A stretch of 36,328 nt of DNA from a virus (IMGVR_UViG_3300013126_000105:1-36328); one strand, 5' to 3'. Counted from the stretch's first letter, positions 214 to 35,498 are shown. Translations and numbers: made by a program. Notes: generated from the sequence alone by a model not told the origin.

Positions 214-609
214 GGCACATCTGCAAGTGTGCAGATGGGTTCACTGGGTGTTGGAACGCCAGCATCCGGAACAGCTGGTGAAATCCGTGCAACAAACAAC
301 ATCACTGCTTACTACTCTGATGAACGCTTGAAGACACGCCTTGGTGGCATTGAGAACGCTCTCGATAAAGTCTGTCAGTTATCGGGCTTCTACTACGAAG
401 CAAATGAAACAGCTCAGGCACTTGGGTATGTCGCCAAGCGTGAAGTTGGGGTCAGCGCTCAGGAAGTTCAAAAGGTTCTTCCAGAAATCGTTACAGCCGC
501 ACCCATCAGTGACGAATACTTGACTGTCTATTACGATCGTCTAACACCACTGCTGATTGAAGCAATCAAACAGCTCAAAGCTGAAATTGATGAACTAAAA
601 GGCAACTAA
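1..609 (+). CDS. Tail fibre C-terminal part, collagen-like repeats plus S74-type chaperone domain (5' partial)
   Basis: The frame is open from base 1, so the start lies outside the window. The first ~70 codons are Gly-X-Y triplets (GYT GSA GEA GAA GAT), a collagen-like shaft typical of phage fibres. From about base 315 the protein reads SDERLKTRLGGIENALDKV, the usual opening of the intramolecular chaperone of endosialidase (peptidase S74 family). It continues with GYVAKREVGVSAQEVQKVLPE and ends in a predicted coiled helix (LTPLLIEAIKQLKAEIDEL). In characterised members this domain trimerises the fibre and then cleaves itself off after a conserved Ser; SDERLK matches that region. The next gene starts directly after the stop. 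The receptor it serves is unknown. Confidence 0.88.
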   Translation, partial: TGYTGSAGEAGAAGATGYTGSAGEAGAAGATGYTGSAGEAGSIGYTGSAGEAGSIGYTGSAGVTGYTGSGYGTSASVQMGSLGVGTPASGTAGEIRATNNITAYYSDERLKTRLGGIENALDKVCQLSGFYYEANETAQALGYVAKREVGVSAQEVQKVLPEIVTAAPISDEYLTVYYDRLTPLLIEAIKQLKAEIDELKGN

Positions 610-1500
610 ATGGCGCTACCAGCATCAGGACAAATTAGTTTAACCCAAGTTAACACAGAGCTTGGTTTATCAGCAACAGCAACTATCACAATGAATGATG
701 CTGGTGTTCGTGGACTTTTTGCTGTTGCTTCAGGTGCTATTGCGATGAGCAATGGGCATGGTAAAGCAAACTATGTAGCTTTTGGCACCAAAGCAACGTA
801 CACTGCAAATTCAACATTAACTATCCCAACGGGGTGTACTGCAATTAGAGTGAAGGCATGGGGTGGTGGAGGAGGAGCAAGTGGAAGTGCTAATACCGGC
901 GGCGGTGCCGGTTTTGCTAAAGGTGATGTTTCGGTATCTGCTGGCACAGTTGTAGCTATTCGTGTAGCCGGAGGAGGTGGCAGAACCGGCCAAGCAGGAA
1001 CAAATGGCGGCGGTTCAAATTCAGCTGGAAACGCAGGAGGCGGTGGTGGATATTCGGGTGCATTTAATAATAACACCGTAAATCAAGCAAATGCTCTAAT
1101 TATAGCTGGTGGCGGTGGTGGCGCCGCCGCCTACGGCAACACCGGACACGGTGGTGGCGGTGGGGGAAGTTCTGGTTTGCGTGGCGGCGGCAGTGGGGGA
1201 ACTGGGGGTTCCCAGTCAGCCGGAGGATCGTTATCCGGGACTGCGTTGCAGGGAGGTAGTTCGTCAACTGTCTATAGTGGTGCCGGCGGAGGAGGTTATT
1301 TTGGGGGTGGTGCTGGGCGTCTTCAGTCTGGTGGTGGTGGCTCGGGATATGTAAAATCTGGGGCAACAAATTCACAAAATACCGCAGGAACAACTGGTGG
1401 AGCTGCTGCGAATACTGGTGATGCTGATTATGTTTCAGGCAAAGGAAATGGTGTCTATGTTTCTGCTGGTCAACCGGGTTATGTAGTAGTTTATTATTAA
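610..1500 (+). CDS. Gly-rich fibre-associated or adhesin-like protein
   Basis: This 296-residue protein begins with MALPASGQISLTQVNTELG, a start found on many proteins encoded beside phage tail fibres. After a short domain (about 1-75) it becomes extremely Gly-rich from about residue 85 to 245, with GGGGG runs separated by short Ser/Ala/Asn stretches, and ends in a hydrophobic strand (GQPGYVVVYY). Gly-rich motifs of this kind form polyglycine-II sandwiches in gp38-type adhesins of T4-like phages and bind outer-membrane receptors. Whether this is an adhesin or a fibre part is inference. It starts immediately after the preceding fibre stop, with AAAAGG about 8 bases upstream. Confidence 0.6.
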   Translation: MALPASGQISLTQVNTELGLSATATITMNDAGVRGLFAVASGAIAMSNGHGKANYVAFGTKATYTANSTLTIPTGCTAIRVKAWGGGGGASGSANTGGGAGFAKGDVSVSAGTVVAIRVAGGGGRTGQAGTNGGGSNSAGNAGGGGGYSGAFNNNTVNQANALIIAGGGGGAAAYGNTGHGGGGGGSSGLRGGGSGGTGGSQSAGGSLSGTALQGGSSSTVYSGAGGGGYFGGGAGRLQSGGGGSGYVKSGATNSQNTAGTTGGAAANTGDADYVSGKGNGVYVSAGQPGYVVVYY

Positions 1501-1522
1501 AGGATTAAAGGAAAATAAAAAA

Positions 1523-2128
1523 ATGTCATTTGCACACACATGGAAAGTAACACAACTGGACACATACGTTGAACACAACGGTATTCAAAATCTAGCATAC
1601 CATGTTCACTACTCTATCACAACAACAGATACGGAATCTGTTTACAAAGTAATCCAAAACATGACACACTGGCTCCCCTTTGAAGAACCAGCATTTGCTG
1701 TTCCAGCATCGCAGCTGACAGAACAGCAAATTGTGGATTATATTAAATCTCAAGTGGTTGTTGCTGATCTTGAACAAGCTGGTGAACAACAATTGCAGGA
1801 AATGAAGACCCCAACTATCACAACTATTCCGTTACCCTGGAAAACTACTGAAGAGTTATTCGAAGAAAAGAAAAATGAATTTACGTGGCACGTTCAACAC
1901 TTTATGGATCAACAAGCATCTCTGAAGGGGTATGATAATATACTATCAGCTTGCTCGTACGCGGCTTATCCCAATGCATTCCAACAAGAATCACAGTCAT
2001 TCATATTGTGGAGATCAGCGGTTTGGACATACTGCTATCAAGAACTGCAAAAAATACAAAACAATGAACGATCCATTCCTGCAGTTGAGGATTTTATTGC
2101 TGAACTCCCTGCTTTCGTAAACTTGTAA
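1523..2128 (+). CDS. Tail-fibre assembly-like protein
   Basis: This 201-residue protein has two parts. Residues ~1-95 (MSFAHTWKVTQLDTYVEHNG) are a strand-rich domain common in phage structural neighbourhoods. Residues ~115-201 are helical, with VQHFMDQQASLKGYDNILSA, a WRSAVW motif and a PAVEDFIAELP end. The pattern GYDxIxSAxSYA...FxxWRxAVW...PxxxxFxAxLP recurs in small proteins encoded next to phage tail fibres and usually annotated as fibre-assembly or chaperone proteins. The role is assigned by that resemblance and by its position between fibre genes. A GGATTAAAGGA sequence precedes the start. Confidence 0.55.
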   Translation: MSFAHTWKVTQLDTYVEHNGIQNLAYHVHYSITTTDTESVYKVIQNMTHWLPFEEPAFAVPASQLTEQQIVDYIKSQVVVADLEQAGEQQLQEMKTPTITTIPLPWKTTEELFEEKKNEFTWHVQHFMDQQASLKGYDNILSACSYAAYPNAFQQESQSFILWRSAVWTYCYQELQKIQNNERSIPAVEDFIAELPAFVNL

Positions 2129-2134
2129 CACAGA

Positions 2135-2142
2135 TATAAATA
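2135..2142 (+). promoter_or_regulatory. T4-type late promoter box TATAAATA
   Basis: An exact match to the T4 late -10 element, just after a stop codon and 78 bases before the fibre start at 2220. The long leader it would create holds the hairpins described at 2151-2219. Confidence 0.7.
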
Positions 2143-2150
2143 GATAAACA

Positions 2151-2219
2151 GGATATATATCCTCTGAACACAACGCGGTATATACTGCAACGTGTTCTCC
2201 CTAAACAACGGAGAACTTT
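2151..2219 (+). promoter_or_regulatory. Structured leader of the fibre gene with two mutually exclusive hairpins
   Basis: Three elements are visible. GGATATATATCC (2151-2162) is a perfect palindrome. GAACAC (2166-2171) pairs with GTGTTC (2192-2197) around an inner stem in 2175-2188. GTTCTCC (2194-2200) pairs perfectly with GGAGAAC (2210-2216), which contains the Shine-Dalgarno GGAG of the gene at 2220. The last two share bases 2194-2197, so they cannot form together: one hides the ribosome site, the other leaves it free. The pairing is read directly; a switching role is inference. Confidence 0.5.
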
Positions 2220-3728
2220 ATGGCACAAACTATTCTACTCAAACGCTCTGCGGTCCCTGGAAAAATCCCGCAAGTAACGGATCTGCAGACAGGCGAATTG
2301 GCCCTCAACACATACGATGGTAAGTTGTATGTCAAACAAGATGATGGTACCGAAGCAATCAAGGAAATTGGCGCTGATCCGTTTCCAACACAATCAGGTA
2401 AAGCAGGACAATTCCTAAAAACCGATGGTACACAAGTATTATGGTCAGCATCTGGTGGTACTTCTTCATTAATTGATCAAGTCGCACACGGCTTTACCGT
2501 CGGAAAAATTCTTCGCTATGATGGCACAGCATACGCATACGCTAGTGCGGATGGTGAAAATACAGCTGATGTTGTTGGTGTTGTCACAGAAGTGAATTCA
2601 GACGACAGCTTCACATTAACTACCAGTGGGATTATCAATCTTCCAGGATTTGCACTTACCCCAGGAGCTCCATACTTCTTGTCCACGTCACTATCAGGTG
2701 ATCTAACTGACGTGGAACCAACAGCCCCAGGAACAATCAGCAAACCACTGATGATTGCTCTGTCAGCAACATCCGGTTTATTTTACAACTGGCGTGGTGT
2801 AGAAAACAGTCCTGAAGTTGAAATTGACAATCTGTTACCAGATCAAACAGGCAACGCTGGGAACGTGCTAATGTCCGATGGAACATCGGCTGGGTGGATC
2901 AGTATCGCTGCTGCAACTGCTTCAACGTTTGTTGAAGCATCCAACTCGTTCACAGTCGGACAAATTGTTCGTGCAACAGGCAACCCATCGACACCATACG
3001 TGCTGGCACAAGCAAATAACGTCAGCAACTCTCAGGTGTACGGTATCGTGTCCAGTGCATCACCGACACAGTACACAGTTACAACATCAGGTCGTGTTGT
3101 CGGGTTATCAGGCCTAGTGCCTGGTTCTGTGTACTATCTCAGTGATGCAACTGCTGGTCAATTGACGGTCACTGAACCGACAACAGTAACGTCAATCAGC
3201 AAACCACTATTCATAGCAACTGACTCAACTGAAGGTGTATTTTTCAATCAACGTGGAATCGTTGTTGGAGTTGCAACGGCTACACCAGCACAGCTACTAC
3301 CAACCCAAACAGGACAGGCAGGCAAATTCCTGACAACAAATGGGTCATCCGCAAGCTGGGCAAGCATTGTGACGGGTGTCAGTTCATTCAATACTCGCAC
3401 TGGTGCTATCACCCTGACATCAACAGACGTTGCAAATGCTTTGGGCTACACACCAGCAAACAATGCAACATTGGTGTCTGGGTATCTACCACTCACAGGT
3501 GGCACACTAACAGGTGACTTGACAACATACCGTGATGCAACCCCAACAACTGGTGTGGTGTATTTGGGTAACACAGGAAATAGATACGTATCATATGACG
3601 GCACAAACTACCAAATGCCGGGAGCAAACCTATTCGTAAATGGGTCGCAGGTGATGACAGGCGCTAAAACAATTTCCACAGCAGCACCGTCTGGTGGTGC
3701 AGACGGTGACATTTGGTTCAGGGTATAA
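2220..3728 (+). CDS. Tail fibre protein (MAQTILLKRS family)
   Basis: This 502-residue protein starts MAQTILLKRSAVPGKIP and continues LQTGELALNTYDGKLYVKQ, the well-known N-terminal attachment module of many phage tail fibres. The body has two long related repeats (each with a GxxVRxDG-like strand, TTSGxxxLPG and PGxxYFLS), spaced by QTGxAGKFLxTxGxxxxW units. It ends with ISTAAPSGGADGDIWFRV, a C-terminal tag shared with the fibres at 14666 and 15749. It is a close paralogue in architecture of the gene at 15749, and each is followed by a Gly-rich adhesin-like gene. Probable host-recognition fibre; receptor unknown. Confidence 0.8.
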   Translation: MAQTILLKRSAVPGKIPQVTDLQTGELALNTYDGKLYVKQDDGTEAIKEIGADPFPTQSGKAGQFLKTDGTQVLWSASGGTSSLIDQVAHGFTVGKILRYDGTAYAYASADGENTADVVGVVTEVNSDDSFTLTTSGIINLPGFALTPGAPYFLSTSLSGDLTDVEPTAPGTISKPLMIALSATSGLFYNWRGVENSPEVEIDNLLPDQTGNAGNVLMSDGTSAGWISIAAATASTFVEASNSFTVGQIVRATGNPSTPYVLAQANNVSNSQVYGIVSSASPTQYTVTTSGRVVGLSGLVPGSVYYLSDATAGQLTVTEPTTVTSISKPLFIATDSTEGVFFNQRGIVVGVATATPAQLLPTQTGQAGKFLTTNGSSASWASIVTGVSSFNTRTGAITLTSTDVANALGYTPANNATLVSGYLPLTGGTLTGDLTTYRDATPTTGVVYLGNTGNRYVSYDGTNYQMPGANLFVNGSQVMTGAKTISTAAPSGGADGDIWFRV

Positions 3729-3740
3729 GGGGTTAATTAC

Positions 3741-4583
3741 ATGACAATACACGTAAAAACAGGTGGTGTTTGGAAAACTCCCGTATACATTTATGCAAAA
3801 ACAGGTGGAGCATGGCAAGCCGGAAACGGGTTGTCAGAAGTGTATATCAAATCCGGTGGGACTTGGATTTTACAGCACAAACTAATCACAATCAGTGCTG
3901 TGACAACAAACTACAACGTTGCAGCTGCTTGCGGCAATCCGACAAGGCCGCTAACCGTAACGATTGTGAATAATTCATACATTGCATCAACAAGTACCGG
4001 TGCTTGGGCATTTACATGCAACCTACCAGCCGGATCACAACTGTACTTCATCAACAACGGTTATGTGATTGGAGCGGGCGGTAATGGCGGTGCTGGACAA
4101 GCGGGCGGTGGAGCAGGTGGTAGCGGTGGAGCAGCTGGCGGACCAGCGTTCCTCACATACAATACCACTACAATTTGGAACAACGGCACTATAGCTGCAG
4201 GTGGTGGTGGCGGTGGCGGTTCAGCTCGTTACACATACACATACACTCAAAACAAAACAACCGTAACGTCATACAATGGTGGCGGTGGCGGTGGCGGAGG
4301 TGCAGGATACACCAAAGCCGGAGCTGGTGGAGCTGGAGGTGCAGCAGGCACAAACGGTGTTGCTGGAGGTGCCGGAGCTGGTGGAGCTTGGAATGCAGGA
4401 GGTATTGGTGGATTGACTGGTGGAACTTCTGCAGCACGCGGCGGTACCGGTGGAGGTTGGGGTGCGGCTGGTGGCACAGGTTGGTCAGGATATGGCGGTG
4501 GTGGAACATCTTACTATATTGGATACAACTCAAATGTGACATGGGCGGTTACTGGTAACCGATACGGATCCGTTCTTGCTTAA
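3741..4583 (+). CDS. Gly-rich receptor-binding adhesin-like protein
   Basis: This 280-residue protein starts with short repeats (VKTGGVWKTP, AKTGGAWQAG, IKSGGTWILQ), a pattern of phage tail-tip proteins. A strand-rich domain follows (to ~110), then Gly-rich blocks from about 111 to 255 with aromatic loops (ARYTYTYTQN, WSGYGGGGTSYY) between them. The end SNVTWAVTGNRYGSVLA is nearly the same as that of the gene at 17393 (SNVTWAAAGTRLGVAV). Gly-rich motifs with hypervariable loops are the design of T4-like gp38 adhesins. I infer a distal receptor-binding role. It follows the fibre at 2220 by 12 bases and is likely co-expressed with it. Confidence 0.62.
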   Translation: MTIHVKTGGVWKTPVYIYAKTGGAWQAGNGLSEVYIKSGGTWILQHKLITISAVTTNYNVAAACGNPTRPLTVTIVNNSYIASTSTGAWAFTCNLPAGSQLYFINNGYVIGAGGNGGAGQAGGGAGGSGGAAGGPAFLTYNTTTIWNNGTIAAGGGGGGGSARYTYTYTQNKTTVTSYNGGGGGGGGAGYTKAGAGGAGGAAGTNGVAGGAGAGGAWNAGGIGGLTGGTSAARGGTGGGWGAAGGTGWSGYGGGGTSYYIGYNSNVTWAVTGNRYGSVLA

Positions 4584-4591
4584 TTATACAT

Positions 4592-4619
4592 TGTGTTGTA
4601 AAAGCATAAATACAACACA
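4592..4619 (+). promoter_or_regulatory. Late promoter box CATAAATA inside a perfect inverted repeat
   Basis: TGTGTTGTA (4592-4600) and TACAACACA (4611-4619) are exact reverse complements with a 10-base spacer. The late box CATAAATA occupies 4605-4612, 28 bases before the start at 4640, so it spans the spacer and one arm. RNA from upstream could fold here as a weak terminator; as DNA the symmetry could bind a protein. Either role is inference. Confidence 0.55.
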
Positions 4620-4639
4620 CCAAACAAAAGGAATACAAA

Positions 4640-5020
4640 ATGACAGCTAAACTAAACATTAAAATCGTTGGAATTGACCCACAATCGCAATCAGTACTGG
4701 TTGCATGCAACACTTCTGAAAGCGTCAAAGCACTGGACGAGTACGCTCCAATCGCGTTCAGCATGGTCGGTCACGAAGCCACGTCCCCTGAAGAATTCCT
4801 GCAGTCGATTGTTAGCATCGCTAACATCCAAGCTCGTGCACAGGATGAGATGGACAAAAAAGCTGCAACATTTAATCTTGACGCATGGATTGGCGCATCA
4901 ACAGCAGTTGATCTACCACCTGACCCAAAGGAAAATAGTGTTCAGGACGGATCCATCACAATACCAGCTGCTGGTGAATCTCAATTATCTCCAATTCAAA
5001 ATCCCGAGGTGTCTCTATGA
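4640..5020 (+). CDS. Unrecognised small tail-region protein
   Basis: I do not recognise this 126-residue protein. It is soluble-looking: residues ~1-85 are mixed strand/helix (LNIKIVGIDPQSQSVLVACN, then helical EEFLQSIVSIANIQARAQDE) and the last ~35 residues are Pro/Ser-rich and probably disordered. AAGGAA lies 7 bases before the start and a late box 28 bases before it. Its stop overlaps the next start as ATGA, so it is translationally coupled to the cupin-like gene at 5017. It is probably a late virion or tail-assembly protein; no function can be assigned. Confidence 0.6.
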   Translation: MTAKLNIKIVGIDPQSQSVLVACNTSESVKALDEYAPIAFSMVGHEATSPEEFLQSIVSIANIQARAQDEMDKKAATFNLDAWIGASTAVDLPPDPKENSVQDGSITIPAAGESQLSPIQNPEVSL

Positions 5021-5532
5021 TTGTACAAAATTCTGTTAACACGGGTGGATTCTTGTACTGCAATCTGTACGTGGGTCCACACCAAACGGGTGAATATTTA
5101 AACGACGGTACTGGACACTATCACCAGGCTGCTTACATCATTGAAGGTGATGGAACGGCTACATCATCAGCTGAAAAACCACCATTACCACGAGAAACCT
5201 CACATCTTACAACTGGGTTATTTGTTGATTTGTCACACTCTCGCGGAGCAAACACAGACATTAAGACGTATGAGACAGGAACCAGCATGATGTTCTTTAA
5301 TCCAATTCCTGATACTCGCGAGTTGGACATTGTGATCGCCAAAGGTAAAGACACACAAACTCTACAGCTAACACCTCAGGATGGCATTCGCACTGTGATT
5401 GTTAGCATTGTTGGTACAGCAATCGCAAACAGCAAGGAACTCAAAGCATCACAATATGCTATCGTGTCAAAACCGGTTTCGATCCAACTCGAACCAACAG
5501 GTGTTATTGCTATTGTAAAACATTCCAGATAA
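5017..5532 (+). CDS. Cupin-like beta-rich protein, paralogue of the gene at 12354
   Basis: This 171-residue protein contains GTGHYHQAAYIIEGDGTA (about residues 30-48), which looks like the first strand pair of a small cupin or jelly-roll barrel, and MMFFNPIPDTRELDIVIAKG near residue 95. The gene at 12354 shares the same landmarks at the same places (GDGSYHQAAYILAGSATVT, ILFNPTPASNVLKIQVFQ, VVALTGTAFVNN versus IVSIVGTAIANS) and ends alike (IAIVKHSR versus IAIVRE). Only one of the usual cupin histidine pairs is seen, so metal binding is uncertain. It follows its upstream neighbour by ATGA overlap and directly precedes the lipid operon. Function unknown; a structural or assembly role fits the late context. 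Confidence 0.6.
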   Translation: MIVQNSVNTGGFLYCNLYVGPHQTGEYLNDGTGHYHQAAYIIEGDGTATSSAEKPPLPRETSHLTTGLFVDLSHSRGANTDIKTYETGTSMMFFNPIPDTRELDIVIAKGKDTQTLQLTPQDGIRTVIVSIVGTAIANSKELKASQYAIVSKPVSIQLEPTGVIAIVKHSR

Positions 5533-5536
5533 ACTC

Positions 5537-5565
5537 TTGACTTTGGTGTGTGACTATGGTATAAT
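5537..5565 (+). promoter_or_regulatory. Near-consensus sigma70 promoter of the lipid operon
   Basis: TTGACT (5537-5542) and TATAAT (5560-5565) are separated by exactly 17 bases. Transcription would begin near 5572 and give a short leader containing the Shine-Dalgarno AGGAG just before the start at 5590. It starts right after the stop of the cupin-like gene. The -10 is a perfect match, pointing to use by unmodified host RNA polymerase. Confidence 0.82.
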
Positions 5566-5589
5566 AGTCCTATCAAAACAGGAGTTAAA

Positions 5590-6816
5590 ATGGAACAGTA
5601 TGTAATCACCGGGATGGGGTTATACAATGACCTCGGTAAAAATACCGAGTCAAGTTGGTTGGGATTGTTGCAAGGCAAAAGCACAATCAAACCAGTCCAA
5701 TGGCCAGAAGATGACCTAAACAGATTTCCCCAATCTTATTCAAACCTAAAAACAAATATTGGGGGCATCTGCACACCTCCATCACCAGATGAATGCATTG
5801 ACAAGTTCTCCAAATACTGGAAGGACTGGGATCCTAATACTCGCGTTGGCCTGCTGTCCGTCGATGAGGCTATCACATCATCAAAATTAACATCATCGAA
5901 TACTGGTGTTATATTCAGCACATTTGGTGCTGGCACATCAATCAGGTTGGAGGTGTTCACGGCCATTCACACAGGCAAAGTTCGCTTTTCTCCGCGCAAG
6001 TGTCTTAACATCGGGCTTGATTTCCCGGCAGCTCAGATCGCAGCAATATATGGGTTCAATGGTCCCAACACCAGTCTTGATAGTGCTTGTACAACAGGAC
6101 TAACATCAATTCAGCAAGCCGTCAATACACTAAAAGCGCATCCGGAGTTGGATGCGATGGTTGTCGGTGGCACTGATTGCATGTTTGAACCCATTTACAT
6201 ATTCTGGTTTCAAAGTCTTGGTGCATTAAGCCCAACAGGCACTAGTGCTCCATTTGACACAAATAGAAATGGGTTTGTGCTCGGTGAAGGTGCAGGAACT
6301 ATCATCATTGAACCAAAATCCAAAGCCATTGCACGTGGAGCAACTATATATGGTATAGTGTCTGGCAGTGGCAATAGCACCCTATTTGATAGTGATACAA
6401 GCCCTGATCCACTGGGTAATGGAGCAAAGTGGTGTATGTCGCAAGCCGTGGAGAGAGCGGGAATAACATTTGACCAGATCGATTATGTGAGCGCACATGC
6501 TACAGGAACACCTGTTGGTGATGAAATCGAGTATAATGCTGTTGCAGAGCTGATGCCCGGGCGAGTTGTTGTCAGCAACAAAGGGCAGATCGGGCACTGT
6601 ATGGCAGCTGCTGGTATTATCGAAACTATCTACACCATACAAGCCATGAACAATGCTACAACACCATTCAACGCCAATCTAACAGACCCTATTGGGGCGG
6701 GTGATGTTGTTTTACCAACAAGACCTACAAGTCTAAATATCAAATACGCCATCAAAAACAGTTTCGGTTTTGGTGGTCGAAACGCTTCTGTTGTGTTGGA
6801 GAGATGGGATGGTTAA
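5590..6816 (+). CDS. Beta-ketoacyl-ACP synthase, FabF/KAS II-like
   Basis: This enzyme would condense an acyl chain with malonyl-ACP, the chain-lengthening step of type II fatty-acid synthesis. At 408 residues it has normal FabF length. All catalytic residues are present: nucleophile Cys167 in LDSACTTGLTSIQ, His303 in SAHATGTPVGDE, Lys331 and His336 in NKGQIGHCMAAAG, with the same 5-residue Lys-His spacing as E. coli FabF (Lys335/His340). The C-terminal loop NSFGFGGRNASVVL is intact. The N-terminus (MEQYVITGMGLYNDLGKNTE) matches the family. It is the first gene of the operon, with AGGAG upstream and a strong promoter. A polyketide-type KS cannot be excluded, but the fatty-acid reading is favoured by the FabI-like gene downstream. 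Confidence 0.93.
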   Translation: MEQYVITGMGLYNDLGKNTESSWLGLLQGKSTIKPVQWPEDDLNRFPQSYSNLKTNIGGICTPPSPDECIDKFSKYWKDWDPNTRVGLLSVDEAITSSKLTSSNTGVIFSTFGAGTSIRLEVFTAIHTGKVRFSPRKCLNIGLDFPAAQIAAIYGFNGPNTSLDSACTTGLTSIQQAVNTLKAHPELDAMVVGGTDCMFEPIYIFWFQSLGALSPTGTSAPFDTNRNGFVLGEGAGTIIIEPKSKAIARGATIYGIVSGSGNSTLFDSDTSPDPLGNGAKWCMSQAVERAGITFDQIDYVSAHATGTPVGDEIEYNAVAELMPGRVVVSNKGQIGHCMAAAGIIETIYTIQAMNNATTPFNANLTDPIGAGDVVLPTRPTSLNIKYAIKNSFGFGGRNASVVLERWDG

Positions 6817-7594
6817 CTTAATACAACCAAACAAATACATACCAACGGCCATTCAGATATTAACGCCGTTGTTTATATGGATGGGCATTCAATCCACCGA
6901 TGATTGGGTCTGGTGGATTGTTGCGCTTGTATTTTTTCTATGCTACAGAATGATTGGGCATGGTGTGGGGTTGCACAGATATTACTGTCACAGTCAATTC
7001 ACGACGAGTAAAATTGGGGAATGGATTATTGGATGGTTCAGCTTGATGAGCTGTGTGGGGTCTCCATCCAGTTACACTATGGTTCATCTGGTTCATCACA
7101 GATACAGTGATACGGATAAAGACCCTCATGGACCAACAAAGGGGATTAAATCCCTGTTCTATGGGTTTTGGAAACCACCAATGGATTTGTCAAACACACC
7201 AGTATTCACACGGCGCTTATCACAATTGATTCCATATATGTGGATACACAACTGGTATTGGCCTTTGATTCTAGCAAATGCAGTTGCATTATATCTAATT
7301 GATTACAAAGTGTTTTTATTTGTATGGCTGATACCAATGAGCATAACAATATGGGAAATTGCATATTCTACTTATTTTTCGCACTGGACACCGTCAGGCA
7401 ATAGAGCACTCAATCACAAAAATATAATTGGATATCTGTGTCCATTCCACGAATATCTACACAAAACACACCACGATTATCCAATGCTGGGGGATCATGC
7501 TTTGAACAAAGGCGAAGTTGATTTCACATACAAACTGTGCAAATTATTTGCAACAAGCTGGAAACAAGAACACTTGAAGGACAAAACGCTATGA
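6809..7594 (+). CDS. Membrane fatty-acid desaturase 1 (SCD/delta-9 type)
   Basis: This 261-residue integral-membrane di-iron desaturase carries the three histidine boxes of acyl-CoA/acyl-lipid desaturases: HRYYCH (56-61), HLVHH (93-97) and HKTHH (218-222). A conserved DTDKDPHG follows box 2. Two hydrophobic hairpins (about 12-50 and 148-190) bracket the boxes as in stearoyl-CoA desaturase. Such enzymes use O2 and two electrons to put a cis double bond into a saturated chain. I chose ATG 6809 rather than an upstream in-frame start because MVNLIQPNKYI aligns with the starts of its paralogues and GGAGAG lies 5 bases before it. It overlaps the KAS gene by 8 bases. Regiospecificity cannot be read from the sequence. 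Confidence 0.9.
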   Translation: MVNLIQPNKYIPTAIQILTPLFIWMGIQSTDDWVWWIVALVFFLCYRMIGHGVGLHRYYCHSQFTTSKIGEWIIGWFSLMSCVGSPSSYTMVHLVHHRYSDTDKDPHGPTKGIKSLFYGFWKPPMDLSNTPVFTRRLSQLIPYMWIHNWYWPLILANAVALYLIDYKVFLFVWLIPMSITIWEIAYSTYFSHWTPSGNRALNHKNIIGYLCPFHEYLHKTHHDYPMLGDHALNKGEVDFTYKLCKLFATSWKQEHLKDKTL

Positions 7595-8400
7595 AACTAC
7601 AACAATTAATGCAACCATCTGGGTGGTCAACCACCATCTTGCAACTATCACTGCCATTCAGCATATACTTCGGAATACAAGAAAATGTAGAATGGTATTG
7701 GTGGGCATTCTGCATGTTTATGTATGTTATTGTGTATTCATTGATTGGCAACAACATCGGATTGCACAGATACTTCTCTCACGGTCATTACAAAGTGAGC
7801 AAACCGATTGATTGGCTGTTTGCATGGACTGGAGCAATGAGCGGTCTAGGTGAACCAGTAAGCTATGCTATGACACACCTAGTCCATCACGATCCCCGCT
7901 ACACAGACACGGATAAGGATCCTCATGGACCTCACCGCGGGCTCAAATCAATTCTGACCATATTCTACAGGCGCGTTGACATTAAAGAAACGCCAATTCC
8001 TGCGAAGCGAATTGTCGAGTTAACCAGAAAATATGGATGGCTGCACAAGTACTACATCCCCTTTGTTGCTGCAAACGCAGGGGTTATGTATCTCATTGAT
8101 TATAAATTATTTTTGTTCGGTTGGTTGATTCCAGCTAGTCTGTGCTCAACTGGTGTAGCGATTGCTGTGTTAACCCAGCATTGGAGCGGATATGCTAATA
8201 ATGGTTGGCACCATAAATGGTTTCTCTGGTATGAGGCATTACATAAGAACCATCACGACTGGATGATGGCGCCAAACACAGCTGTCCGTCCTGGTGAAAT
8301 TGATTACACATATGAATTTACTCGTCTTGTGTTCAGACCAGAATTTAATATGAGGGGGCAACCTACCAGTGAACAGGTTGCAAAAAGGTCAAATTTGTGA
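7591..8400 (+). CDS. Membrane fatty-acid desaturase 2
   Basis: This 269-residue paralogue has all boxes: HRYFSH (59-64), HLVHH (96-100) and HKNHH (218-222), plus DTDKDPHG after box 2. An extra residue pair (DPR) sits between HH and YTDTDK. The C-terminus contains PGEIDYTYEFTRL, a signature shared by all five copies. Start ATG 7591 forms an ATGA overlap with the previous stop, implying coupled translation, with GAAGGA about 9 bases upstream. Like its neighbours it needs an external electron donor (ferredoxin or cytochrome b5 type); none is fused to it. Positional specificity is unknown. Confidence 0.9.
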   Translation: MKLQQLMQPSGWSTTILQLSLPFSIYFGIQENVEWYWWAFCMFMYVIVYSLIGNNIGLHRYFSHGHYKVSKPIDWLFAWTGAMSGLGEPVSYAMTHLVHHDPRYTDTDKDPHGPHRGLKSILTIFYRRVDIKETPIPAKRIVELTRKYGWLHKYYIPFVAANAGVMYLIDYKLFLFGWLIPASLCSTGVAIAVLTQHWSGYANNGWHHKWFLWYEALHKNHHDWMMAPNTAVRPGEIDYTYEFTRLVFRPEFNMRGQPTSEQVAKRSNL

Positions 8401-9197
8401 TTATCTTTTCATCAACAAAGTATGCGACGTTTTGCATGCAACTGTTGTTCCCACTAGCTGTATGGCTGGCCATAACATCAGGTGCCGACTGGATATGGTG
8501 GGCAATTGCGTTTTGTGCTCACGTTGTGTACGCTGTGGTCGGCAACAACATAGCACTACACAGGTATTTTTCACACAAGCAGTTTACTGTCTCACCGCCT
8601 GTGGAAAAATTGTTTGTGTGGGTGTCATCAATGTGTGGGCTTGGCAGCCCGTTGGGGTATGCAATGATACATCTAGTACATCACAAGTATGCTGACACAA
8701 TACACGACCCGCACGGCCGCACATCATGTGGGTTAAAATCAGTGCTGGTGTGCTTTCACAAAGATGTTGACTTAACAGCAACCCCGATTAACACTAAACG
8801 TGTTGTGGAACTGAGTAAAAAATATGGATGGCTACACCAATGGTATGTATTATTCATTGTTGCTAACGCGGCCATGTTGTTTCTAATAAATTATAAGCTG
8901 TTTTTGTTTATCTGGTTATTGCCTGCTACATTCACGGTATGGGCCGCCGCCATCGCTGTGGTGTGTCAACACTGGAACAATGAGCCTAATAACGGTTGGT
9001 ATAAGATACATCAACTACTGTGGACATACGACAGCCTTCACAAAAACCACCACGACTGGCCAATGGCCCCGAATGCAGCCGTAAGACCAAATGAAATAGA
9101 CTATGCATTCCAATTTTCCAGATTATTCCGTCCAAAATATAATTGGACGGGCCAACCGCGTGGCGCAGATCATGACAATGAAAATACTCCAACCTAA
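8397..9197 (+). CDS. Membrane fatty-acid desaturase 3 (GTG start)
   Basis: This 266-residue paralogue has HRYFSH (55-60), HLVHH (92-96) and HKNHH (215-219). The post-box-2 motif is TIHDPHG instead of DTDKDPHG. It starts with GTG in a GTGA overlap with the preceding stop, and AAAAAGG lies 8 bases upstream. The membrane hairpins are conserved. It resembles desaturase 2 most closely, sharing the KKYGWLH segment and the WPMAPNAAVRPNEIDYAF end, so the pair may be a recent duplication. Role as for the others: insertion of a double bond into a host acyl chain, position unknown. Confidence 0.88.
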   Translation: MIIFSSTKYATFCMQLLFPLAVWLAITSGADWIWWAIAFCAHVVYAVVGNNIALHRYFSHKQFTVSPPVEKLFVWVSSMCGLGSPLGYAMIHLVHHKYADTIHDPHGRTSCGLKSVLVCFHKDVDLTATPINTKRVVELSKKYGWLHQWYVLFIVANAAMLFLINYKLFLFIWLLPATFTVWAAAIAVVCQHWNNEPNNGWYKIHQLLWTYDSLHKNHHDWPMAPNAAVRPNEIDYAFQFSRLFRPKYNWTGQPRGADHDNENTPT

Positions 9198-9918
9198 CGA
9201 ATATATTATTACCCTAATACAATTCACCCTACCGGCCGCATTGTACTTTGGACTCACATCCAATGCGGAGTGGTATTGGTGGTTATTGAGCGCCTTTCTG
9301 TGCCTGGTGTACATTTTTATTGGCAATAATCTGGCTCAACACAGATACTACAGCCATAATGAATTCACCATTGGCAAAGCGGGCGAGTTTATATTTGGTT
9401 GGGCAGCGCTAACACTATGCATTGGTTCACCGGTATCGTATGCTATTTTGCACTTAACTCATCACAAACACCCCACCAGCGGTCCCGACTGGACGTGGAA
9501 AGACTTACCATTTTACAAACACATTTGGTTTGATCATGACACAATTCAACCATATATTGGTAAAAGAGTGATCGAATTACACAAAAAGTATGGGTGGATG
9601 CATGATTACAATTTAATATGGGTTGTTGCCTATCCTGCAATATTGTGGTCCATAGACTATAAACTTTTCCTGTTTGGGTGGTGGATCCCTTGCACTGTAG
9701 CCATGCTGGAGATAGCGCTTGCTGTGTACTTTCAGCACCGTAGAGATGCCCATAACAGTAAATGGCACAAATGGGTGCCCACATATGAAGGGTTGCACAA
9801 AAACCATCATGATTTTCCTGGACAGAGCAATAATGCAAAAGATCCAGGACAGATTGATTATACATATATAATCAGTAAATTATTTGTAAAGAAGTATAAA
9901 AATGACACGATTGCTTGA
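9172..9918 (+). CDS. Membrane fatty-acid desaturase 4, divergent copy
   Basis: This 248-residue paralogue keeps the metal-binding boxes HRYYSH (57-62), HLTHH (94-98) and HKNHH (209-213). After box 2, however, the region carrying (D)xDPHG in the other four is replaced by HPTSGPDWTWKD. The cytosolic segment before the second membrane hairpin is therefore rebuilt, which may change substrate or partner while leaving the di-iron site intact. Start ATG 9172 (or 9178) aligns with the starts of the paralogues; an upstream in-frame start at 9103 would lie deep within desaturase 3. The overlap with desaturase 3 is 26 bases and no strong Shine-Dalgarno is seen, so coupling is likely. Confidence 0.86.
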   Translation: MTMKILQPNEYIITLIQFTLPAALYFGLTSNAEWYWWLLSAFLCLVYIFIGNNLAQHRYYSHNEFTIGKAGEFIFGWAALTLCIGSPVSYAILHLTHHKHPTSGPDWTWKDLPFYKHIWFDHDTIQPYIGKRVIELHKKYGWMHDYNLIWVVAYPAILWSIDYKLFLFGWWIPCTVAMLEIALAVYFQHRRDAHNSKWHKWVPTYEGLHKNHHDFPGQSNNAKDPGQIDYTYIISKLFVKKYKNDTIA

Positions 9919-10660
9919 ACCAAACACTAAAATAATGACACTACTACAACTGTCTTTGCCCTTGCAGTTGTACTGGGCTTTCACGATTGATGCTCCTCTC
10001 TATTGGTGGGGCATCGCATTTGTGTTTTACTTTCTGTACTGTGCAGTTGGCAATAATGTTGGATTGCACCGTTATTTTTGTCATAAGCAGTTCGACATGC
10101 ACAAATACACCGAGTGGTTTGTATTATGGTGCTCAACTATGAGTGGTTTGGGCTCTCCGCAGAGTTATACACTACCACACCTCGTTCACCACAGATATAG
10201 TGATGAAGACAAAGATCCTCATGGTCCAACTGCAGGCAAACGTTCAGTGCTTTATTACTTTCATAGACACACAGGAATGCGATCTATGACCGTTTTTGGC
10301 AAACGTTTGGCAGAATTGTGTGAGAAATACGGGTGGTTGCACAAATATTACTGGGGCGTTGTTGTCTTAAATGCTGGATTGATGTATGCTATTGATGCAA
10401 AGGTGTTTTTGTTTTGTTGGCTACTCCCAGCAACACTGACCTTATGGGCTGTAGCACTGACAATATATTTGCAGCATGAACAGCTGCCTGATGGGTCTTA
10501 CTCAGCATCAAATACACAAAAACACAGTTGGTGGGGGTTAGGTGAAGGACTACATTTAAACCACCATTTGAACCCAAAGCAATTTAACAACGCGATCAAT
10601 CCAGGTGAGGTTGATTATACATGGCATATTGCTAAACTGTTTGCAAGGACAAAACAATGA
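9902..10660 (+). CDS. Membrane fatty-acid desaturase 5
   Basis: This 252-residue paralogue has HRYFCH (56-61), HLVHH (93-97) and a slightly altered third box, HLNHH (218-222), with DEDKDPHG after box 2. The loop before box 3 is expanded (DGSYSASNTQKHSW) relative to copies 2 and 3. The start overlaps desaturase 4 by 17 bases, and its end overlaps the next gene as ATGA. The PGEVDYTWHIAKLF end confirms membership of the family. It is the last of five consecutive desaturases, which would allow several successive double bonds, though that is inference. Confidence 0.89.
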   Translation: MTRLLEPNTKIMTLLQLSLPLQLYWAFTIDAPLYWWGIAFVFYFLYCAVGNNVGLHRYFCHKQFDMHKYTEWFVLWCSTMSGLGSPQSYTLPHLVHHRYSDEDKDPHGPTAGKRSVLYYFHRHTGMRSMTVFGKRLAELCEKYGWLHKYYWGVVVLNAGLMYAIDAKVFLFCWLLPATLTLWAVALTIYLQHEQLPDGSYSASNTQKHSWWGLGEGLHLNHHLNPKQFNNAINPGEVDYTWHIAKLFARTKQ

Positions 10661-10938
10661 TACTGATCACACAAGCTGCAAAAACACAAGTTGACAAAAT
10701 GATTACTCAACATCCAACCCAACCAAAGCCAGTTGGTCTGGGTGCTTTTTTGGAGGAAGGGGACGTCAAACTGAAGCCAATATTTCACTTCCTTGGCAAA
10801 CCATATGCTTTGGAGTTTGATGAAAAGGACGAGTTTTTGGATGTTGGCGTTTTGTTATCACGTGAAGTGTACCATCTAGCAAAAAATAAACCATTAACTA
10901 TTGATTGGAATGGAACAGAGTATGTTGCTGGCTGGTAA
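10657..10938 (+). CDS. IscA/HesB-like small protein lacking all cysteines
   Basis: This 93-residue protein opens MILITQAAKTQVDKMI, like A-type iron-sulfur carriers. It continues with strands (VGLGAFLEEGDVKLKPIFHF) and ends in GVLLSREVYHLAKN...IDWNGTEYVAGW, which follows the 'DxxSxxyLxGxxIDyv' pattern of IscA/HesB. It has no cysteine, so it cannot carry a canonical Fe-S cluster, and the usual C-terminal CGCG tail is absent. The fold assignment is tentative. Coupling by ATGA to a di-iron desaturase and overlap with a FabI-like gene suggest a helper or scaffold role in the lipid pathway. It is not an acyl carrier protein: no DSL phosphopantetheine motif is present. Confidence 0.42.
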   Translation: MILITQAAKTQVDKMITQHPTQPKPVGLGAFLEEGDVKLKPIFHFLGKPYALEFDEKDEFLDVGVLLSREVYHLAKNKPLTIDWNGTEYVAGW

Positions 10939-11677
10939 AACCATCGTTGTAACGGGAGTGTTAAACAAACACTCTCTGGCACATACCATTGTGTTACAAT
11001 TAACTCACCACGGTGCTCGAGTTGTTCTGTTGACACAAGTTCCGTTGCAGGAAGATGTCGGGGTGTTTGAGCACTTTGTGTGCGACTTAACCTCCGACAA
11101 GCAGATTCTGTTGGCCGTGAGCTCGATCACACACAAATATCATCACATCGAAGGGATCGTCCACTCGGTAGCGAACGCTCCTGTAGATGCATTCGCTGGT
11201 TCGTTTACAGACGCCACCACCCGTGATAATTTCCAACAGACGATTGACGCAAGTGCATACAGCCTGCTAGCGCTTGTGCAAGCATTCAGACCATATTTGT
11301 CGGAACAAGCAAGTATTACCACATTGACATATGATGGTGCAGAAAAGTTTGTGCCTGGATATAACGTGATGGGTGTAGCCAAAGCATGCCTCGAGAGTAT
11401 TGTGCGTTACACCGCAGGAGATTTGGGCACAAAAGGCATTCGTGTTAATGCCGTCTCAACAGGCCCATACCTCACCAATGCTACAAAACGATCACCGGTC
11501 ATCAAGCGTAGTATAGAAAAATACAAAACAAATTCACTACTCAAACGTGAGATAACACGCGAGGAAGTTGCAAACACTGTTGTGTTTCTGTGCAGCAACC
11601 TATCCACAGGCATTACAGGAGAAACTATTTTCGTTGATGGTGGGTTTAGTGTTGTCAATGGAGTTGGCATAAATTGA
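10922..11677 (+). CDS. Enoyl-ACP reductase, FabI-like SDR
   Basis: This enzyme would reduce trans-2-enoyl-ACP with NAD(P)H, the last step of each elongation round. With start ATG 10922 it is 251 residues and begins MLLAGKTIVVTGV, aligned with the FabI N-terminus. The catalytic set is Tyr137, Tyr147 and Lys154 within LTYDGAEKFVPGYNVMGVAK, the same spacing as E. coli FabI Tyr146/Tyr156/Lys163. Further FabI-like segments are GIRVNAVSTGP, FLCSNLSTGITGE and VDGGFS. Earlier in-frame starts (TTG 10901, ATG 10910) are possible but extend past the family N-terminus. It overlaps the IscA-like gene by 17 bases. No ketoreductase or dehydratase is encoded nearby, so host FabG and FabZ would be needed. Confidence 0.92.
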   Translation: MLLAGKTIVVTGVLNKHSLAHTIVLQLTHHGARVVLLTQVPLQEDVGVFEHFVCDLTSDKQILLAVSSITHKYHHIEGIVHSVANAPVDAFAGSFTDATTRDNFQQTIDASAYSLLALVQAFRPYLSEQASITTLTYDGAEKFVPGYNVMGVAKACLESIVRYTAGDLGTKGIRVNAVSTGPYLTNATKRSPVIKRSIEKYKTNSLLKREITREEVANTVVFLCSNLSTGITGETIFVDGGFSVVNGVGIN

Positions 11678-12297
11678 TTATCATCCGGGACATTAATGTA
11701 GATTTACAACAGGTGAAAAAGGATGCGCGCAGGGCATCCAATAAAATACTGAAAGCGTATGACGACATTATCAAAAATGACAGTTACATCTCTCGCAAAA
11801 GTTATCACGCAGAACTGAATAACCAGTTGGAGCAAGCACCTCAAACATCAAAGTTACACGACTATTACAACCTTTTCACGTTCCCTTATGAAGGAATAGT
11901 GCAAGTGTATAGAGAAGCGATTGGCACCTTTAAAGAGGTGAATAATTACTCGGAACAATACTATGTCCATGCTTGGCTCAACTACCAGCACAAAGGCGAG
12001 TGTATTCCGTGGCACTACCACTGGAAGGGGTTATCGGGACTTGATAGAACATATGTAGCCACCGCGTACATAAATGCCGAAGGATCAATCACCACATACA
12101 AATATCCTGATGGGACTGTTTATGACCATCACTGTAAAAATGGAACAATCTCCATATTTGAGGATATTGGCGACATCCATCAGGTTAATCCGTGGACTGG
12201 AGATGACCCACGCATAACAATTTCAATGGATTTTGTGCCGATCAAGTACGTGCAAAGCACCCCATACATCGTTAACACATGGATGCCTGTCCTGTAA
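11674..12297 (+). CDS. Putative 2OG-Fe(II) oxygenase, last gene of the lipid operon
   Basis: This 207-residue protein has PWHYHWKG (His114, His116), a strand YVATAYINAEGSITTYKYPDG, and a distal EDIGDIHQVNPW (His169) followed by DPRITISMDFVP with Arg180. That layout fits the double-stranded beta-helix 2-oxoglutarate/Fe(II) oxygenases common in T4-like marine phages: metal His...His and an Arg for 2-oxoglutarate. The substrate is unknown; in this operon a hydroxylated acyl chain is one possibility. The only plausible start is TTG 11674, forming a TTGA overlap with the FabI-like stop, with GGAG about 10 bases upstream. The late box at 12300 directly follows, ending the operon and beginning the next tail module. 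Confidence 0.66.
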   Translation: MIIIRDINVDLQQVKKDARRASNKILKAYDDIIKNDSYISRKSYHAELNNQLEQAPQTSKLHDYYNLFTFPYEGIVQVYREAIGTFKEVNNYSEQYYVHAWLNYQHKGECIPWHYHWKGLSGLDRTYVATAYINAEGSITTYKYPDGTVYDHHCKNGTISIFEDIGDIHQVNPWTGDDPRITISMDFVPIKYVQSTPYIVNTWMPVL

Positions 12298-12299
12298 GT

Positions 12300-12307
12300 T
12301 ATAAATA
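12300..12307 (+). promoter_or_regulatory. T4-type late promoter box TATAAATA
   Basis: An exact late -10 element three bases after the stop of the oxygenase gene and 47 bases before the cupin-like gene at 12354. It marks the return from lipid genes to late structural genes. Confidence 0.75.
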
Positions 12308-12353
12308 GACATTAGCAGTACCCACAAAAACAATAATAACAAAGGGGACACAT

Positions 12354-12878
12354 ATGTCAACATTTAACTACACTACTGTAGATGCAGGCGCTTTCACGTT
12401 TGATCTACTTGAATTATTTCCAAACAACACATTAATTTACTTTAACGGAGGTGATGGGTCATACCATCAAGCAGCATACATCCTAGCAGGATCGGCAACA
12501 GTAACGGTTCATGACACGATAGACGGACCACCAATTCCATCACTCACTCGTGGCAATGATCCTGTCGGAACGCTTATTGATTTGTCACCAACAAAAGATA
12601 AGTATACAGTAACAACAACTGTTGATGGACTAACAACAATTCTATTCAATCCAACCCCTGCATCGAATGTGTTGAAAATCCAGGTATTCCAAACACCACA
12701 AACACTGAATGTTGCATACTCTAATGGAGACAAGTATATCACAGTTGTTGCATTAACCGGTACAGCATTCGTAAATAACGCAGTTCTGTCACAAATGCAG
12801 TGGATGCAACTCCCGCCAACCATGACAACAGTGGTTACCGTAACACCGGACTCGGCTATAGCGATCGTGCGTGAATAA
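12354..12878 (+). CDS. Cupin-like beta-rich protein, paralogue of the gene at 5017
   Basis: This 174-residue protein shares the landmarks of the gene at 5017: GDGSYHQAAYILAGSATVT, PPIPSLTRGNDPVGTLIDLS (versus PPLPRETSHLTTGLFVDLS), ILFNPTPASNVLKIQVFQ and a final AIAIVRE. It is all-beta in appearance, with no membrane segment. A strong AAGGGG Shine-Dalgarno and a late box precede it. The two paralogues lie on either side of the lipid operon. A structural or fibre-accessory role is likely from context; no enzyme motif is clear. Confidence 0.6.
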   Translation: MSTFNYTTVDAGAFTFDLLELFPNNTLIYFNGGDGSYHQAAYILAGSATVTVHDTIDGPPIPSLTRGNDPVGTLIDLSPTKDKYTVTTTVDGLTTILFNPTPASNVLKIQVFQTPQTLNVAYSNGDKYITVVALTGTAFVNNAVLSQMQWMQLPPTMTTVVTVTPDSAIAIVRE

Positions 12879-12881
12879 TTT

Positions 12882-12899
12882 CTTCACACTTTTGTGAAG
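12882..12899 (+). terminator. Hairpin after the cupin-like gene
   Basis: CTTCACA (12882-12888) and TGTGAAG (12893-12899) pair perfectly around a 4-base loop, three bases after the stop at 12878 and just before the next late promoter. No U-run follows, so it may be an mRNA-stabilising 3' end or a weak terminator rather than a classical one. Confidence 0.5.
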
Positions 12900-12915
12900 G
12901 TGATATGGTTGGTCG

Positions 12916-12923
12916 TATAAATA
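12916..12923 (+). promoter_or_regulatory. T4-type late promoter box TATAAATA
   Basis: An exact late -10 element 28 bases before the fibre start at 12951. Confidence 0.78.
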
Positions 12924-12950
12924 CCATATATTTGTTTAACAGGACGAACT

Positions 12951-13829
12951 ATGGCTACATCATTCACACAATTTCAAGCAGTTCCAATTGATGCTGCACT
13001 TGATCCACAAAATACAGCTACAGTCGGCAAAGCGCTAATTTCCAACGGTTCACACGCCACGTGGAATACAATCCTATCGATGATTGGACCAGGGTCAGGA
13101 CAGACAGCAGGTGCCGATGTTGCTAATGCAATCCTGCCGTCACAATCAGGACAGGCAGGTAAGGTGCTATCAACCGATGGGAATGGAACACTGTCGTGGG
13201 TTACAGACCAGGCCGGAGCGGGTGGCGGTGTCACCAGTATCACAATCAGTGGTGTGACATCAACAGGTGCTGTGACGATCACCAATGTTCCATCGGCTAC
13301 CATAGCAGGAAATGTATCGGGTGTTGTTGCAATCGCCAACGGTGGAACTGGTGCAACATCTGCTGCCCAGGCACTAACAAATCTCGGTGCAGCGGCTGCA
13401 AACCACACTCACAACTATGCACCGCTAGCATCTCCAGCATTCACTGGAACCCCAACTGCCCCAACCGCTGCTGCAGGTACCAACACAACACAGTTGGCGA
13501 CAACAGCTTTTGTAACAGCTGCTGTAAGTGCTGGTGGAGGGTTGGGATATGGACAAACATGGCAAGATGTAACAGCCAGTAGAGTTGTTGGAACCAATCT
13601 TTCACCAACAACATATACAAACAATACAGGGAAGCCAATTGTTGTAAACTTTGCATCAGCCGAATTGAACAATCAGTTCATAGCTAAAGTCAACGGTGTT
13701 ACTGTTGGTTGGTTCACTAACAATTCCGGATCATCCAGTACGCTTAGTTTTATAGTCCCGCCGACCAACACGTATTCAATTTCAACATCGATGTTAAACC
13801 CAGCATACACATGGGTCGAACTGAGATAA
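12951..13829 (+). CDS. Tail fibre-like protein
   Basis: This 292-residue protein starts MATSFTQFQAVPIDAALDP and has VGKALISNGSHATWNTIL, which recurs as GKALISNGMTASWNTILGM in the next gene. QSGQAGKVLSTDGNGTLSW is a repeat shared across all fibres here. Residues ~115-180 carry NGGTGATSAAQALTNLG and LASPAFTGTPTAPT, motifs widespread in phage tail-fibre shafts. The C-terminal ~90 residues form a separate beta domain (IVVNFASAELNNQFIAKVNG), probably the tip. Late-promoter driven and preceded by AGGA. Receptor specificity is unknown. Confidence 0.72.
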   Translation: MATSFTQFQAVPIDAALDPQNTATVGKALISNGSHATWNTILSMIGPGSGQTAGADVANAILPSQSGQAGKVLSTDGNGTLSWVTDQAGAGGGVTSITISGVTSTGAVTITNVPSATIAGNVSGVVAIANGGTGATSAAQALTNLGAAAANHTHNYAPLASPAFTGTPTAPTAAAGTNTTQLATTAFVTAAVSAGGGLGYGQTWQDVTASRVVGTNLSPTTYTNNTGKPIVVNFASAELNNQFIAKVNGVTVGWFTNNSGSSSTLSFIVPPTNTYSISTSMLNPAYTWVELR

Positions 13830-13854
13830 GGACTACGAGTGAGACAACTCTAAT

Positions 13855-13862
13855 GATAAATA
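13855..13862 (+). promoter_or_regulatory. Late-type box GATAAATA
   Basis: A one-base variant of the T4 late -10 element, 28 bases before the start at 13890, the same spacing as at 4605, 12916 and 30320. Confidence 0.55.
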
Positions 13863-34877: not shown

Positions 34878-35498
34878 ATGACATTCTTGTGTTACAAAAT
34901 AACAAACACGGTCAATGGTAAAGTATATATTGGCATTACTCAGCGCTCTTTGTCTGAGCGGTGGAGAGATCATCTCAAGCCTGTAAAATATAATTTAGAG
35001 CAGAATATGCACATTCTGCACGAGGCCATTAAAAAATATGGTGAGCAAGCATTCACTATAGAGGAGATTGGTCAGTCAGATACAGCCGAAGGGGTTAAAC
35101 TGTTGGAACAGATGTTTATCCGACAATTTAACTCATTCTACGCAAATGGGGCTGGGTATAATATGACATATGGTGGCGACGGAACCACTGGTCACATTGT
35201 GACTGAGGAACAGCGACAAAAAATGTCCAAGTCACACGTGGGCAAGTCGAAGGGACCTCACACCCAAGAAACCAAAGATAAAATATCGGCAATCCACAAA
35301 ATCAACAAGCACGGGCCGTCCAAATTGTGCAATCAACGCAGGAGCGAGACAGGCAGAGGGGTGCCGCGGTCGGATGATGTAAAAGAACGCATCCGTGCAA
35401 CACTAAAAGGCCGACCTCGCCCACCCGAGGTCGTTGAAAAAATAAAGGCAGCTGCAAAACGGCGGAAAGAGCAGAGAGACAATGGCTCACAGACCTGA
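34878..35498 (+). CDS. GIY-YIG homing endonuclease with NUMOD3 repeats
   Basis: A site-specific endonuclease of the free-standing SegA/I-TevI type. This 206-residue protein has the GIY-like strand CYKITNTVNGK (5-15), KVYIGIT (15-21), catalytic-type Arg28/Arg30, Glu77 in LLEQMFIRQFNS, and YNMTYGGDGTTG (94-105). The C-terminal half has NUMOD3-type DNA-binding repeats: TEEQRQKMSKSHVGKSKG, TQETKDKISAIHKINKHG and SDDVKERIRATLKGRPRP. It has its own promoter. Its 3' end overlaps the start of the DnaE-like C-terminal gene by 17 bases in another frame, so it abuts the second half of a split gene, the usual site for such elements. Confidence 0.93.
   Translation: MTFLCYKITNTVNGKVYIGITQRSLSERWRDHLKPVKYNLEQNMHILHEAIKKYGEQAFTIEEIGQSDTAEGVKLLEQMFIRQFNSFYANGAGYNMTYGGDGTTGHIVTEEQRQKMSKSHVGKSKGPHTQETKDKISAIHKINKHGPSKLCNQRRSETGRGVPRSDDVKERIRATLKGRPRPPEVVEKIKAAAKRRKEQRDNGSQT

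Follow-up and report, generated by a model that had tools for sequence, protein, structure and literature searches.

Why would a virus carry a run of genes that resembles part of a fatty-acid pathway? The question is raised by a 36,328-base IMG/VR record, a metagenomic fragment that we refer to throughout as the window, in which nine genes at 5590-12297, each overlapping its neighbor by 4-29 nt, encode a FabF-type ketoacyl synthase (KAS), five membrane desaturases, a small 93-aa protein, a FabI-type reductase, and a 2-oxoglutarate (2OG) oxygenase. The original prediction for this DNA was of a nine-gene, translationally overlapped operon, and its coordinates and reading frames all proved correct. 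The operon is on the plus strand, as are its promoter, the late promoter at its right edge, and both flanking genes; it lies between tail-fiber genes. The proteins encoded on its two sides are paralogues of each other (31% identity): one directly upstream, outside the operon (5017-5532; cupin fold, model pLDDT 86, HutD match E 1e-5), and one on the right flank (12354-12878).

The first gene (5590-6816) encodes a thiolase-fold beta-ketoacyl-ACP synthase with matches to the Pfam ketoacyl-synt domain (E 4e-38), the second KAS domain (E 2e-26), and FabF in the PDB (E 7e-53). The catalytic residues named for it in advance, Cys167, His303, Lys331, and His336, are intact and invariant across 11 phage KASs. 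Its score against the curated equivalog TIGR03150 is 273 bits, short of the cut-off of 494, and the protein is FabF-like rather than a FabF orthologue. The enoyl-ACP reductase (SDR, 10910-11677) is likewise of the FabI type: alignment to 3ek2 shows the NADH fold and a Tyr-X9-Tyr-X6-Lys arrangement, with the anticipated Tyr140, Tyr150, and Lys157 all correctly placed at the FabI spacing of 10 and 7 residues. Against the curated FabI equivalog it reaches 213.7 bits, where the best model needs 440. The last gene (11674-12297; phrog_81, TTG start) encodes a 2OG/Fe(II) oxygenase, with the HxH...H...R motif invariant in 10 of 10 homologues. The one label that fails is that of an IscA-like protein for the 93-aa ORF at 10657-10938. 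This ORF contains no Cys, has no Pfam match even at E 5 (IscA PF01521 included), yields a low-confidence structure model, and shows no detectable similarity to genuine phage IscA, and the identity is thereby ruled out; a true IscA in record L034 passes the same PF01521 and Cys test.

The remaining five genes encode the desaturases D1 (6809-7594), D2 (7591-8400), D3 (8397-9197, GTG start), D4 (9178-9918), and D5 (9902-10660), which are 37-50% identical among themselves. The nine His metal ligands known from stearoyl-CoA desaturase (HX4H, HX2HH, H, HX2HH) are present in all ten aligned sequences, D1-D5 included, in agreement with the earlier claim of five complete sets of His boxes, and with the family profile the match to stearoyl-CoA desaturase 4zyo reaches E 1e-7. 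Because Pfam PF00487 places only D1 (E 1e-15) and D5 (E 5e-13) above its cut-off, with D4 below it and no match for D2 or D3, the count of five rests on the mutual identity and the His set. D4 retains its nine His and, alone among the ten sequences, lacks the otherwise near-invariant DPH motif that follows the second His box. In a 126-row tree, a quick tree with long branches elsewhere, D1-D5 and the DesA and DesB proteins of related contigs form one phage-only clade of 22 rows (SH-aLRT 99). Within it, D2 is the counterpart of the relatives' DesA (54-58% identity), D3 falls on the DesA side, and D5 is closest to DesB (49%). Since the best bacterial full-length match is only 28% identical, this clade points to a long-standing phage desaturase lineage that was duplicated within phage.

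Is the block itself a phage locus? The window contains T4-like gp32, UvsX, UvsW (closest to that of jumbo phage XacN1, 50% identity), clamp-loader, and tail-fiber genes, and a relative (G003) encodes the T4-type capsid protein Gp23 (E 6e-97), so the source contig appears to be a fragment of a jumbo T4-type phage. A megablast search of the phage collection with the replication region found no near relative, and the window, in which no tRNAs were found, offers nothing decisive for host assignment. Scanning IMG/VR with KAS or D1 as a single protein gave no matches; relatives were found with two profiles, one of the five desaturases and one of KAS. Eight other contigs (L006, L007, L167-L172) carry KAS-DesA-DesB-2OG at the same site, with the cupin gene directly upstream of KAS in seven of them, L168 beginning inside the locus. 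A ninth (L008), truncated, retains a partial DesA together with DesB and 2OG where the contig stops, and L169 has an additional short-chain dehydrogenase-like gene, below the Pfam cut-off, ahead of 2OG. This core is under purifying selection, with dN/dS of ~0.04-0.23 for KAS, DesA, DesB, and 2OG (NG86, pairs with dS < 2). The search for the same gene order in other phages, which the original prediction had proposed as a check, thus recovered the core in eight contigs but the nine-gene set in the window only. The conserved unit is KAS-DesA-DesB-2OG, with the full set peculiar to the window, which has expanded two desaturases to five by in-phage duplication and has gained FabI and the 93-aa gene.

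That other contigs have this core in the same position largely removes the alternative, raised at the outset for both edges of the block, that bacterial DNA was misassembled onto a phage contig. Although the window is a 36 kb piece of metagenomic sequence and none of the relatives shows its right junction (12298), the cupin-KAS junction, which recurs in seven contigs, refutes such an error for the left edge. The nearest homologues are phage rather than bacterial, the cupin paralogue and a late promoter extend the phage pattern rightward, and the GC content is similar (0.43 versus 0.45-0.47); we consider an assembly error extremely improbable. None of 80 bacterial loci showed a cluster laid out in this way, and the single KAS match among them, in Burkholderia, has a desaturase only at a distance of ~8 kb; this absence is weak evidence because the search was pattern-limited.

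The timing of expression can be approached through promoter consensus matches. A sigma-70-like promoter (TTGACT-17-TATAAT, 5537-5565), with TG before the -10, stands directly before KAS; it is the best plus-strand site in 4500-13500 and coincides with the predicted start of the block at 5537. Only five plus-strand sigma-70-like sites in the window score 11-12/12, and the other four precede gp32, a clamp-loader gene, and an ORF at 23301 (two sites). T4-type late promoters, TATAAATA, occur four times against 0.92 expected. The one at the right edge of the operon (12300-12307) serves the next gene, the cupin paralogue at 12354, while others precede a tail-fiber gene at 2220 and a tail gene at 12951, and the fourth is at 36065. 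Because the operon has its promoter type in common with gp32 and the clamp loader, whereas TATAAATA stands at tail genes, we read it as a probable early-type cassette inserted into a late tail-fiber region. Total promoter-like and terminator-like counts in the window are not above shuffles, and no equivalent promoter was seen upstream of KAS in the relatives. This timing bears on the idea that the target of the acyl product is the virion or the host surface, altered through acylation or hydroxylation of tail fibers or through lipid A/LPS, with effects on adsorption or superinfection exclusion. The operon does sit between tail-fiber genes; Des-ACP-Des-Des in L053 has a tail-fiber gene just upstream, and the desaturase cluster of pelagiphage Mosig also ends in tail-fiber genes. 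However, the early-type promoter is unlike the late promoters of tail genes, no acyltransferase was recognized in the operon, and tail-fiber regions are general cargo sites; we regard this idea as quite improbable.

In our best explanation, to which we assign a probability of roughly 0.55, the operon would be an early-expressed cassette of a jumbo T4-type phage for acyl-chain elongation and desaturation at the acyl-ACP level. In the predicted order of steps, the phage KAS would extend an acyl chain on ACP, here presumably that of the host, by two carbons, host FabG would reduce and host FabZ would dehydrate the KAS product, and the phage FabI-type reductase would complete the elongation round; no ketoreductase or dehydratase gene was recognized in the window. 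The five diverged desaturases would introduce several double bonds, with the activity of D4 possibly altered, and the 2OG oxygenase may hydroxylate the acyl chain or another substrate. Such a line would yield an acyl group that is polyunsaturated, perhaps also hydroxylated, and foreign to the host's own enzymes, and this group would most simply be placed into the lipids of the infected cell. Elongation with repeated desaturation, as originally proposed, is still the best-supported reading, though without the IscA component and with the nine-gene set peculiar to the window. That FabI and three of the desaturases are found only in the window and not in its relatives counts against it. Furthermore, no ACP gene was recognized in the window or in ~390 kb of close relatives, all of these records being fragments, so the carrier must be host ACP, acyl-CoA, or a lipid, unless an ACP lies in unsequenced parts of the genome. 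Desaturases can act on intact lipids without ACP, which counts against a role at the acyl-ACP level; that level is favored by ACP-Des-KAS and AcpS-ACP-Des-KAS modules in other phages.

A KAS is also encoded by 18 of 50 desaturase-bearing viral records, and in most of the 18 it adjoins a desaturase directly. The layout is ACP-Des-KAS in six records (L034, L040-L043, L085) and AcpS-ACP-Des-KAS in seven (L064, L071, L076, L077, L079, L080, L195), with the genes end-to-end or overlapping. Among the more elaborate sets, L029 has ACP-Des-Des-Des-KAS and then a gene for a PF10118 metal hydrolase, L009 combines KAS and a radical SAM protein with five desaturases, and L038 has KAS-ACP-FabZ together with AcpS, a second ACP, a pair of desaturases, a Rieske protein, and a radical SAM protein. 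Des-ACP-Des (L017) and four desaturases in tandem (L018) also occur, and many phages have a lone desaturase. Because this list of records had been found by desaturase, we repeated the search with an ACP-type KAS only; nearly all close matches with sequence upstream of KAS had a desaturase adjacent, while in L194 ACP-KAS stands with no desaturase. The KAS tree splits the window type from the ACP-Des-KAS type at 100/100 and groups the latter with bacterial FabF/FabB, so the pairing with desaturases arose at least twice. Six of these records encode the T4 Gp23 capsid protein, which supports viral origin; for several others, all short fragments, we rely on their classification as viral in IMG/VR. 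KAS matches in GenBank "phage" records mostly looked like host carry-over (UNVERIFIED labels, one bacterial contig) and entered the KAS tree solely as bacterial-like references.

We tentatively suggest, as a possibility, that phages belonging to several lineages have acyl assembly lines of their own, built on a carrier protein and comprising AcpS, ACP, desaturases, KAS, and oxygenases, with which a specific polyunsaturated lipid or small molecule is produced in the course of infection. If so, viruses would bear a class of polyunsaturated fatty-acid or polyketide-like pathway that had not been described before, and the window is the tandem version richest in desaturases within this analysis. 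A rival proposal, which we judge unlikely, is that the module makes a dedicated polyene-, polyyne-, or oxylipin-like small molecule instead of bulk membrane lipid; after repeated desaturation and then oxidation on the carrier, the chain would be set free to act as a signal, a toxin, or an agent against competitors. In its favor, the sister modules have an ACP and an AcpS of their own, neither of which would be required for remodeling bulk lipid, and the sets in L053, L038, and L009 combine multiple desaturases with ACP, Rieske, AcpS, or radical SAM genes. In addition, 2OG oxygenases adjoin desaturases in two separate clades, and bacterial polyynes require three cooperating desaturases (PMC8406139). 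Against this proposal, the fatty acyl-AMP ligase that loads alkyne and polyyne clusters (JamA, PF00501) is absent from 30 of 31 records, including the window and its clade, and present in one; the clade itself has no ACP, and no thioesterase or rubredoxin gene was recognized in the window operon.

Alternatively, the desaturases may act on membrane lipids or acyl-CoA as fluidity helpers, with KAS and FabI only boosting fatty-acid supply. This is the published model for the cryopeg phage desaturases, citing cyanophage work (PMC7300359), and it accords with the match to the stearoyl-CoA desaturase family and with the phages that have a single desaturase. Yet it would leave unexplained both the repeated desaturase-KAS neighborhood with ACP and AcpS and the retention of five copies as diverged as those of the window, and we consider it unlikely. 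Elongation and desaturation on a carrier protein is the reading that we prefer.

How new is such a module? The original prediction held that no phage system with this full set had been described. Within the open papers searched, no desaturase-KAS or ACP-desaturase-KAS phage module was found, and the words desaturase, fatty, and ketoacyl are all absent from a review comparing 224 jumbo phages (PMC7824862). The claim is too broad in that single phage desaturases, phages with five desaturases (PMC7300359), and prophages with acpP, fabF, and fabG (PMC8224337) are already known. Phage desaturases have so far been read as single membrane-fluidity genes, and the recurrent linkage of desaturase, KAS, ACP, and AcpS suggests that some phages carry a working acyl-chain pathway instead of a lone enzyme. 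Within their hosts, viruses appear to operate a small pathway for lipid synthesis that has gone undescribed. The linkage makes phage effects on host lipids during infection testable, and these loci are a source of short, phage-adapted desaturases.

Comparison with known systems places the operon among several partial likenesses. In the 2018 cyanophage work of Roitman et al., marine T4-type phages reportedly carry membrane desaturases among their auxiliary metabolic genes, with one or few desaturases and without KAS, ACP, or AcpS. Two cryopeg phages have five desaturase genes each, interpreted as fluidity helpers (PMC7300359; follow-up PMC10405475). Like those of the window, the cryopeg and sea-ice phage desaturases (Zhong et al. 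2020, PMC7300359) belong to large phages, form phage-only clades, and show conserved His motifs and purifying selection; compared by description, the main text of that study does not mention ketoacyl synthase, acyl carrier protein, or FabF. Rhodobacteraceae (Roseobacter) prophages carry fabG-acpP-fabF (PMC8224337) and thus resemble the phage modules in having fatty-acid synthase genes that include ACP and FabF, but their order is that of the standard bacterial fab operon, and no desaturase is described within the cluster. Pelagibacter phage Mosig EXVC030M (MT647606) resembles the window in that its desaturase neighbors a gene for a 2OG-type hydroxylase within a tail-fiber region, although this desaturase is the only one, is ~25% identical to D1, and has no KAS annotated nearby. 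Bacterial alkyne and polyyne clusters (JamABC, protegencin, caryoynencin; PMC8406139) share the feature of several cooperating membrane desaturases, and the five of the window match, in copy number only, the polyyne count of three or more. The likeness in ACP is confined to the sister phage modules, as no dedicated ACP is present in the window or its clade. The phage modules differ in having a KAS in place of a recognizable fatty acyl-AMP ligase, thioesterase, or rubredoxin, and because the loading enzyme is missing we do not regard the operon as a member of the polyyne clusters. As an analogy, polyyne-type clusters are the closest working one for several cooperating desaturases.

Within the window operon, the fourth desaturase, D4 (9178-9918), has lost the near-invariant DPH motif but retains all nine histidines; its substrate or reaction may have changed. 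The window also carries a GIY-YIG/NUMOD3 homing endonuclease gene (34878-35498).

A viral contig of 138 kb (L009) encodes, at 318-10747, five desaturases, a window-like β-ketoacyl-ACP synthase (KAS; 36%), a radical SAM protein, and a gene that by eye looks like a 2-oxoglutarate (2OG) oxygenase. Four overlapping desaturases stand in tandem in another viral record (L018:9947-13070), flanked on either side by probable 2OG oxygenase genes. In the ACP-Des-Des-Des-KAS operon of viral record L029, a PF10118 predicted metal-dependent hydrolase gene (13229-13861) overlaps the end of KAS.

In the AcpS-ACP-desaturase-KAS phage cassettes at L071:3000-5557, L064:1391-4017, and L195:4521-7194, the desaturase and condensing enzyme adjoin both a carrier protein and the enzyme that activates it (AcpS). 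KAS genes also occur in phage-labelled GenBank records, for example OR846615, OR849884, and MT837044; these records are UNVERIFIED and unannotated, and look like bacterial carry-over.

In the metabolic cluster of Pelagibacter phage Mosig (L004:7354-13000), an Asp/Arg hydroxylase adjoins the desaturase, and tail-fibre genes lie at the cluster's end. The phage contig L038, which has genes for a ClpP-like head protease and an endolysin-like protein close by, encodes at 4712-12611 KAS, ACP, a FabZ-like dehydratase, a Rieske protein, two desaturases, AcpS, a second ACP, and a radical SAM protein, a set resembling a small-molecule gene cluster.
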